Shown: positions 7,152 to 16,997 of the stretch, piece after piece
Layout of the letters: every line of letters begins with the position of its first letter
How positions within the stretch are numbered: position 1 is the stretch's first letter
Virus record (IMG/VR): IMGVR_UViG_3300040801_001133
Coordinates: 64,001-94,026 of that record
Source of the DNA: a virus
Strand: one strand, 5' to 3'
Length of the DNA: 30,026 bases
The notes under the pieces: model-generated
Told to the model about the DNA's origin: nothing
Database searches by the model: none
What the model saw: the letters and a program-made list of their open reading frames with translations, nothing else
Translations under genes and position numbers: made by a program

Positions 7152-7155
7152 AGAG

Positions 7156-7534
7156 TGGAGGTGGGCGGAGTTGAACCGCCGTGTTCCCTACTAATTTATA
7201 AATATCTTAATGTGAAATTGGGGACGTACCAGAGGTACAATCCTTCCACCACTTACTCTTGAGAAAAGTAAGAAAACCTCGGTTATTTTTAAGTCTTAAC
7301 CTAAACTATGACTTTATCTCAAATCCTGTTGCCAAGACTAGGCCACGGCCCGAAGGCCAGTGAAACTAGTTTGAGATACTCCGCTATACATCTGTACGAT
7401 GGTAGCACTTTTACGTCCTGAGACGTTCTTATTGTTGCCAATTAGAAAGATGATTAGTTATTTCTAGCTACTAAAATCATAAGCCGATTCACAATATTTA
7501 TCTACTAATAGAGAGTCGAAGCCATTTCACCCCC
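7156..7534 (-). ncRNA. ssrA: tmRNA (ssrA-type), phage encoded
   Basis: 379 nt. The two ends form the tRNA-like domain: 5' GGGGGTG pairs with 3' CACCTCC plus discriminator A. The 5' end continues AAATGGCTTCGAC, the usual tmRNA start, and the T-arm is GGCGG-TTCAACT-CCGCC. A long helix H2 joins the two ends (GATAAATATTGTGAAT against ATTTCACATTAAGATATTTATA). After it comes a clear pseudoknot PK1: stem ATGATT..AGT/ACTAATCAT, with loop TAGAAA pairing to downstream TTTCTA. Further hairpins follow, including one with a UUCG tetraloop inside a 9-bp stem (TATCTCAAA/TTTGAGATA). tmRNA with SmpB rescues stalled ribosomes. The tag frame could not be fixed: no ALAA-like ending is visible. One candidate open frame after PK1 ends in LRAVA and a UAG at about 7339. 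No CCA encoded. Confidence 0.88.
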
Positions 7535-15181: not shown

Positions 15182-15547
15182 TTATTTAAGTTTTCTTAGT
15201 ATTTTACCCTGTACATATCCTTTTAGGTACGTAGGTCTTTCACCAGCATCTCCTAGATCAGTACCATGAGTACTTGTTATACTAGAATGAGTTAATACTC
15301 TGGCTTTGTTCTCACGATTATCAATTAGATAACTGTAATAGGGGTTATTTTTTCTAAAAGAGATTAGAGCTAGGTATACGCCTGGCTTTAGCCTGTCTAC
15401 TTTGAAGGAGGGCTTACCTTTATAGCTTGCTAGATCATATTGCAATTCTTTCTCTTTTTTTGTTAATGGGCAAAAAGGAACGGGGTCATCTTTAGGAACT
15501 ATTATTCTACATTCAGGATGTAGTTTTTGTATGTATGCTAGGGACAT
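15182..15547 (-). CDS. hypothetical protein
   Basis: 121 residues, basic, probably beta-rich (GVYLALISFRKNNPYYSYLIDNRENKARVLTHSS). No membrane segment and no motif I can name. It is followed closely by the GTG-started small gene. The ATG at 15547 is preceded by an A/T-rich leader. Confidence 0.7.
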   Translation of the reverse strand: MSLAYIQKLHPECRIIVPKDDPVPFCPLTKKEKELQYDLASYKGKPSFKVDRLKPGVYLALISFRKNNPYYSYLIDNRENKARVLTHSSITSTHGTDLGDAGERPTYLKGYVQGKILRKLK

Positions 15548-15568: not shown

Positions 15569-15685
15569 TTAGTAAATTGCCTTAACACTACTAGCATAAC
15601 TAGCTATCCATTTGGTCTTAACTTCAGGATAATTATAGTGTCCAACCTGCATTTTAAGCAGGAGTTTTAAATTAATGTTCGGCAT
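15569..15685 (-). CDS. 38-residue peptide
   Basis: ATG at 15685 lies inside the last codons of the preceding frame (ATGCCGAACATTAA). The product is basic and amphipathic (MPNINLKLLLKMQVGHYNYPEVKTKW then IASYASSVKAIY). Overlap of start and stop supports coupled translation. No family. Confidence 0.45.
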   Translation of the reverse strand: MPNINLKLLLKMQVGHYNYPEVKTKWIASYASSVKAIY

Positions 15686-15851
15686 AAATGATGAACCCAT
15701 GTGGGTGAGGGAGATCATCTTCTTTAATGCGCTCTTTCTCTTCCTTCTCCTCCATCCGTTCCAGGTACTTTTCGAGGGATAAGTCCTCGTTCCAATCTAG
15801 GGGAAGATGGGGTGCATCTTGGTTAAACTTGTTTATGATATGTGATTTAAT
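15672..15851 (-). CDS. 59-residue acidic protein with no canonical start
   Basis: Open frame from a stop near 15858 to TAA 15672. It encodes a convincing charged protein (NQDAPHLPLDWNEDLSLEKY, LERMEEKEEKERIKEDDLPH) and is slightly GC-richer than its surroundings. No ATG, GTG or TTG lies at the front. ATT at 15851 would give M-KSHIINKF, and the first ATG is internal (about residue 32). It begins 9 nt downstream of the hammerhead-like RNA, so RNA processing might matter for its expression. Confidence 0.45.
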   Translation of the reverse strand: MKSHIINKFNQDAPHLPLDWNEDLSLEKYLERMEEKEEKERIKEDDLPHPHGFIIYAEH

Positions 15852-15859
15852 AAGTGGTT

Positions 15860-15941
15860 AACTGTTTCGACCATACAAATACCTTACGGCTTGGTGTTAC
15901 TCACCAACTCATCAGAGATACTGAAAATGTATCTGACAGTT
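15860..15941 (-). ncRNA. hammerhead-like self-cleaving ribozyme (atypical stem II)
   Basis: On the minus strand, in the order of a type III hammerhead: stem III strand AACTGT, cleavage triplet GTC (cut predicted after the C at 15935), stem I AGATAC-ATTTTCA-GTATCT, core CTGATGA (15915-15909), G10.1, insert, C11.1, core GAAA (15868-15865), stem III strand ACAGTT. Stem III pairs 6/6 and stem I 6/6. Core bases are all present and correctly spaced. Stem II is unusual: only the G10.1-C11.1 pair, then a branched insert with hairpins TTGGTG-AGTAA-CACCAA and GCC-GTAA-GGT. Activity is therefore uncertain. Confidence 0.55.
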
Positions 15942-16485: not shown

Positions 16486-16531
16486 GAACGATTCAAGCCT
16501 CTTTTGATTTAAGATACTATTTGAATCATTC
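16486..16531 (-). terminator. hairpin at end of winged-helix gene
   Basis: GAATGATTCAA pairs with TTGAATCGTTC (11 bp, one wobble) around a 24-nt loop. It starts at the stop codon of the winged-helix gene and is followed by an ATCTTATC tract. Same design as the other stop-codon hairpins here. Confidence 0.5.
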
Positions 16532-16997
16532 ATTTAGAGCTTCTAACCAAAGTAATTATTTGATTTTCCCTGTCATTATCTTTCATAAAAGATACTCTAT
16601 CACCATTAAAGATATAGTCTATATTTACCCAATAAGTAAATTTAGATTTCCTAGCTATAATCTTATTATTTTCTAATTCATCAAGAGATAAAGTTACAGT
16701 ATTTTTGTGTAATCCTGTAAGTTGAGCTACTATCTCTCTTTTAAGCTGGATTACATCTGAATCTCTTGTTAATTTATATACTATAAACTGATAAACCTTC
16801 ATGGTACTACTCTTTAAATTCATTAAAGAAGTAAATAAAGAGTCATCTTTATACACTTTTGTAGAAGCTTTTATATCAAATTGTCTGGATAAAGTTATTT
16901 GGCCCCCACTACCCGAAGCTAAAGTATAGTTACTCTTTTGGTCTAGTATCGGAACCCTAATTGGTTCTAAAAAGGGGTTAGTACTATGTATTTTCAT
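16530..16997 (-). CDS. RepL-like winged-helix DNA-binding protein
   Basis: 155 residues. The middle and C-terminal part forms a winged helix: LKSSTMKVYQFIVYKLTRDSD, REIVAQLTGLHKNTVTLSLDELENNKIIARKSKF, then a wing TYWVNIDYIFNGD. This pattern matches RepL-type initiators and related phage regulators. In crAss-like phages RepL-like genes are linked to episomal replication. The N-terminal 55 residues are not conserved-looking. Its long upstream region (17000-17250) carries repeats and a palindrome, and paired palindromes lie downstream, so it may act as origin-binding initiator or autoregulator. Confidence 0.75.
   Translation of the reverse strand: MKIHSTNPFLEPIRVPILDQKSNYTLASGSGGQITLSRQFDIKASTKVYKDDSLFTSLMNLKSSTMKVYQFIVYKLTRDSDVIQLKREIVAQLTGLHKNTVTLSLDELENNKIIARKSKFTYWVNIDYIFNGDRVSFMKDNDRENQIITLVRSSK

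Follow-up and report, generated by a model that had tools for sequence, protein, structure and literature searches.

The stretch of viral DNA analysed here (the window; 30,026 nucleotides, positions 64,001 to 94,026 of IMG/VR record IMGVR_UViG_3300040801_001133) carries on its minus strand a type III hammerhead motif in which two abutting hairpins take the place of stem II. The element, at 15860–15941 from one arm of stem III to the other, is almost certainly a genuine hammerhead-type RNA; we infer that it works like a type III hammerhead, and it is probably active. The branched stem II is, we conclude, new: a rare variation on the hammerhead fold.

A direct reading of the minus strand bears out the coordinates of the initial annotation and its order of CTGATGA, GAAA and GTC: CUGANGA, GAAA and U16.1-H17 are correctly ordered at 15941–15860, and a GUC cleavage site is present. 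The 5' arm of stem III, AACUGU (15936–15941, U16.1 being 15936), faces the 3' arm ACAGUU (15860–15865, A15.1 being 15865). Stem I is the hairpin AGAUAC-AUUUUCA-GUAUCU (15916–15934), with arms at 15934–15929 and 15921–15916 and a loop at 15928–15922. Stem I is closed by its loop and stem III is open; each consists of six Watson-Crick pairs, so that the perfect 6-bp stems and the A15.1–U16.1 pair previously described are confirmed by the sequence (15865 A, 15936 U). The core segment CUGAUGA occupies 15909–15915, and C11.1 (15869) with the core GAA (15868–15866) occupies 15866–15869. Cleavage is predicted between C17 (15935) and 15934; the 5'-OH position proposed earlier, 15934, agrees with the geometry of the core. 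A permuted form of the motif (type I or II) was ruled out, since no suitable GAAAC lies upstream.

The unusual part of the element lies between the two core segments. Here G10.1 (15908) could pair with C11.1, enclosing two 6-bp hairpins; the pair and the hairpins together span 40 nt. This G–C is invariant in phage hammerheads; in the window the pair is possible, though the nearest-neighbour energy model does not form it and gives it a probability of 0. Hairpin A, UUGGUG-AGUAA-CACCAA (15891–15907), and hairpin B, GCCGUA-AGGUAUUUG-UAUGGU (15870–15890, with an AUG at 15874), form in the isolated insert with pair probabilities of 0.73–1.0 and 0.75–0.92, respectively. Folding constrained by the core returns exactly these two hairpins, abutting, and their exact division of the insert was equalled by only 6 of 20,000 dinucleotide shuffles. 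Inspection for Watson-Crick pairing between loop I and stem II revealed no contact of four or more pairs.

Two further branched examples, in genomes unrelated to the window phage, were found. In the first (L167, on a 42.5-kb contig that also carries a serine recombinase-like gene) three hairpins with two closing pairs occupy the place of stem II, and an ATG preceded by GAGGAGG follows the hammerhead after 70 nt. In the second (L182, a Kaiserbacteria contig) the place is taken by a hairpin together with an ordinary GUCC/GGAC stem, and a compact hammerhead lies some 300 nt upstream of the branched one. Both precede genes, and for each the hammerhead fold has the lowest energy. Like the window element, they combine a type III core with two or three hairpins at the position of stem II, while their inserts have no sequence similarity to the window insert. 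Together with the constrained fold, the shuffles and the score of an independent covariance model (below), they support the earlier description of a hammerhead with a branched stem II. A stem II of one possible pair and two hairpins strains the rule of Eckert et al., as does L182.

Hammerheads of type III are carried by a number of Patescibacteria contigs (Levy-, Nomura-, Taylor-, Kaiser- and Campbellbacteria; loci L169, L172, L180, L182, L195, L219 and L224, bins L178, L193, L198, L203 and L241). Their stem II is long (28–51 nt) and mostly unbranched; several often occur within 8 kb, and many are followed by a GTTCTTTnA motif. A literature search of limited reach found no paper linking hammerheads with Patescibacteria.

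That the combination of core and stems is very unlikely by chance, as first proposed, was upheld in two ways. Extrapolated from 669 Mb of sequence that a first-order Markov model generated with the dinucleotide frequencies of the window, the expected number of such motifs is about 1.4e-6 per window, counting both strands. The second test was a covariance model (R1) built from 38 other phage hammerheads, the window sequence being left out; it detects the element with 35.4 bits (E 1.8e-6 in 123 kb). The Rfam hammerhead search suggested in the initial annotation does produce a match to RF00008 (E 1.2e-4 for the 94-kb virus record). No other Rfam family matches the region better, and RF00008 matches nowhere else in the record, but the 25.8 bits fall below the gathering score of 48.5. 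RF00008 also misses two compact and intact phage hammerheads (L127 and L046); its cut-off is therefore a poor test, and negative Rfam searches in phages are unsafe. Since the curated score is missed and the closing pair of stem II is no more than a possible one, we do not class the element with the canonical members of RF00008.

A scan of viral contigs with a compact hammerhead pattern recovered at least 120 loci. Although the pattern made no demand on stem I, 126 of the 140 matches listed have a stem I of at least 4 bp. For 38 phage hammerheads among those listed, 96.6% of structure cells are paired and the covariation score is 0.736, compared to 0.165 in shuffles; changes on both sides were seen in all six stem I pairs, three of four stem II pairs and the single stem III pair that the pattern leaves free. 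One locus, L162, is a type II hammerhead. Among the matches listed, L127 agrees with the window in all six stem I pairs, and L046 has a version compensated at one pair. An identical stem I is expected by chance 0.03 times among the roughly 126 matches listed, and a link between the window and L127 is thus suggested rather than shown. The window proteins have no relatives in L127 or L046, and L127 possesses its own unrelated terminase and portal-like genes (read by eye).

Phage hammerheads occupy a tight slot between genes. In the 101 listed phage hammerheads with enough flank, a same-strand stop lies within 100 nt upstream in 96% (41% for random positions); the median distance to the upstream stop is 33 nt, and an ATG-started frame begins at a median of 24 nt downstream. 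Across the 110 viral loci listed (L039–L168), stable hairpins are commoner than in control stretches within the 45 nt before the cleavage site, with z below -2 in 62% compared to 12% of controls (p 5e-21); because the controls are random rather than intergenic positions, part of these contrasts reflects intergenic position. Perreault et al. proposed that hammerheads process polycistronic phage RNA, with support for prophage examples, which cleave in vitro and in E. coli (PMC3088659). The intergenic slot fits such processing.

The window appears to derive from a crAss-like phage, judging by matches to PHROGs, phages and crAssphage records and by what is established about this group. Matches in PHROGs are phrog_6681 for the terminase, phrog_6547 for the portal and phrog_11589 for the major head protein; the nearest named phages are those of Flavobacterium psychrophilum (FpV4/FPSV group, 60–61% identity), and crAssphage records match too. 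The hammerhead lies on the strand of a leftward gene block, before a block of tRNA genes. About ten tRNA genes are present in the window, and amid them lies a tmRNA-like gene (7155–7534, minus strand; RF00023, 61.7 bits; tag GNNKNVSGRKSATIVQMYSGVSQTSFTGLRAVA). Two group I introns stand just before the window (L038 1306–1538 and 3404–3641, minus strand; 113 and 71 bits), and window positions 16530–16997 (minus strand) encode a protein similar to the plasmid replication protein RepL (PF05732, E 4e-7), here in a crAss-like phage.

The flanks of the window copy depart from the usual slot. The initial annotation placed the ribozyme next to a gene lacking a canonical start, and a frame with no upstream ATG does exist (15672–15857, minus strand); it runs from stop to stop over 61 codons (59 by the earlier count), with its only in-frame ATG at about codon 35, while an in-frame ATA at 15836 stands where starts usually lie after phage hammerheads. 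Its standing as a gene is weak. The codon score of -0.07 (0.27 for true coding, -0.26 for shifted frames) is in the non-coding range, below 99.7% of the true coding stretches of this phage, although the somewhat GC-richer composition of the region may bias it, and no relatives were found in 18 related crAss-like records, the phage collection, Pfam or PHROGs. A coding start in this frame was rejected on the codon score, and because its leader resembles that of the frame at 15182–15547 no better than shuffles do. The latter, on the minus strand and encoding 121 aa with no known relative, is the first clear ATG gene downstream and begins only at 15547. Upstream of the hammerhead are some 180 nt of apparently non-coding sequence, preceded by a 31-codon frame, MCTFDLIIIFLLALILIGFGLICYRITQIGS (read by eye). 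The suggestion that cleavage separates an upstream structured RNA found no support: the 276-nt region is only slightly more stable than shuffles (z -1.5) and contains no Rfam family beyond the hammerhead. An upstream hairpin, GGUUG..CAACC, was rejected as a terminator (z 0.03).

The hammerhead was sought in 76 related crAss-like records, many of them fragments (about 14 exceed 80 kb). RF00008 gave nothing convincing in them; given its failure on L127 and L046, this negative was distrusted and the search repeated with R1, which returned only a false match in FpV4. The FpV4 match lies inside a virion gene and has neither H17 nor stem II, and a match in G016 lacks CUGANGA; both were rejected. Used as probes, the flanking proteins recovered a single identical contig of 7.5 kb, which ends about 220 nt before the ribozyme. 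Sample 3300040789 contains identical contigs. With no hammerhead in the 76 records, the window copy is isolated in its phage lineage, and there is no covariation to support it or its hairpins A and B. The compensatory changes that comparison of related phages was meant to reveal are seen in phage hammerheads generally (stems I and II and one stem III pair), but not for the window copy, which has no close relative in these records.

We consider it likely that the element is a cis-acting type III hammerhead in a leftward polycistronic transcript of a crAss-like phage, cleaving mRNA between genes. On transcription the RNA would fold and cleave between C15935 and A15934. The upstream part of the mRNA would then end in a 2',3'-cyclic phosphate, and the downstream part would begin with a 5'-OH and the folded ribozyme, leading to the frame at 15182–15547 and then to the block of small genes and tRNAs. 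Of the two hairpins in the compound stem II, one probably stacks on the core like an ordinary stem II, and the other would be a tolerated insertion. In favor of cis-cleavage we count the intact core and stems, the chance expectation of about 1.4e-6, the 35.4 bits of R1, covariation in the phage set, the exact two-hairpin division, L167 and L182, the intergenic phage slot and the cleavage of prophage hammerheads (PMC3088659). Against it stand the absence from 76 relatives, a rod-like fold 2.8 kcal/mol better than the hammerhead fold, the missed Rfam cut-off, the lack of a clear gene start close downstream, the 180 nt or so of apparently non-coding sequence upstream and the lack of an evident loop I–stem II pairing on inspection. 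If active, the hammerhead widens the descriptor needed for finding hammerheads.

Several of these points could also describe a decaying or very slow hammerhead, in which the core has survived but useful activity has been lost to the inserted hairpin and the competing fold. The isolation of the copy in its lineage, a stem II of one pair, the atypical flanks and a hammerhead fold that is not the energy minimum (its ensemble gap is unusually large, ranking at the 98th percentile among 127 hammerheads) are all consistent with decay. However, no core base has been lost, stems I and III keep all 12 of their pairs, the insert folds more neatly than a random sequence would, and L167 and L182 combine similar branching with good hammerhead folds. 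On balance we think decay unlikely, though it is the most serious of the alternatives.

Considerably less probable is a regulated hammerhead in which hairpin B, the site of an AUG and a potential pairing partner of stem I, acts as a switch or sensor coupling cleavage to translation or a ligand. The two folds do compete, and the AUG, in an AAGG-N7-AUG arrangement, opens a 13-codon frame (15833–15874, minus strand); the TAA that ends it shares bases with the in-frame ATA of the downstream frame (15836), the two together reading ATAA. Engineered hammerheads, moreover, accept aptamers in stem II. Yet when hairpin B is shuffled, 45% of the resulting sequences match the native hairpin in competing with stem I and give as large a gap; accordingly, the competing fold does not speak for a designed switch, and a fold switch by hairpin B was rejected. 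Hairpin B is conserved in no relative, and L167 and L182 have no sequence in common with it. The broader notion that multi-hairpin junctions came to replace stem II on separate occasions, in a crAss-like phage, in a mobile element and in a Patescibacteria contig, the extra hairpin being a control or sensor domain and the whole a natural allosteric hammerhead, is likewise improbable, if marginally less so.

Least credible is a chance resemblance within a non-coding stretch: although the Rfam cut-off is missed and most matches in viral contigs to the pattern CTGTC..CTGATGAG..CGAAACAG with a long stem II are due to chance (stem I pairing is near the random rate in the 12 such matches from all viral contigs), those matches lack stem I, whereas the window has full stems I and III with six Watson-Crick pairs in each, and the simulation and R1 together reject a chance origin.

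Cis-cleavage by a type III hammerhead remains our preferred reading, and it can be set beside known systems. A literature search, with most subscription papers outside its reach, turned up no publication describing hammerheads in crAss-like phages. Compared to the type III hammerheads of RF00008, including those of phages and prophages (Perreault et al. 2011, PMC3088659), the window element has the same core, A15.1–U16.1 pair and GUC site, the same closed stem I and open stem III, a stem II that would likewise be closed, and the same intergenic phage setting. Where a typical type III stem II consists of 2–6 pairs and a small loop, however, the window has one possible pair and two hairpins (40 nt). 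A one-pair stem II is found in a natural and active metagenome hammerhead (PMC3088659, Figure 4); that RNA uses a six-pair pseudoknot to loop I, whereas none is evident in the window. The HDV-like theta ribozymes of gut phages (PMC10879173) also are small self-cleaving RNAs, as is predicted for the window, in tailed phages of Bacteroidota with a proposed role in RNA processing, but they have a different fold and are located at tRNA 3' ends, whereas the nearest tRNA gene follows the window ribozyme only after about 4.6 kb.
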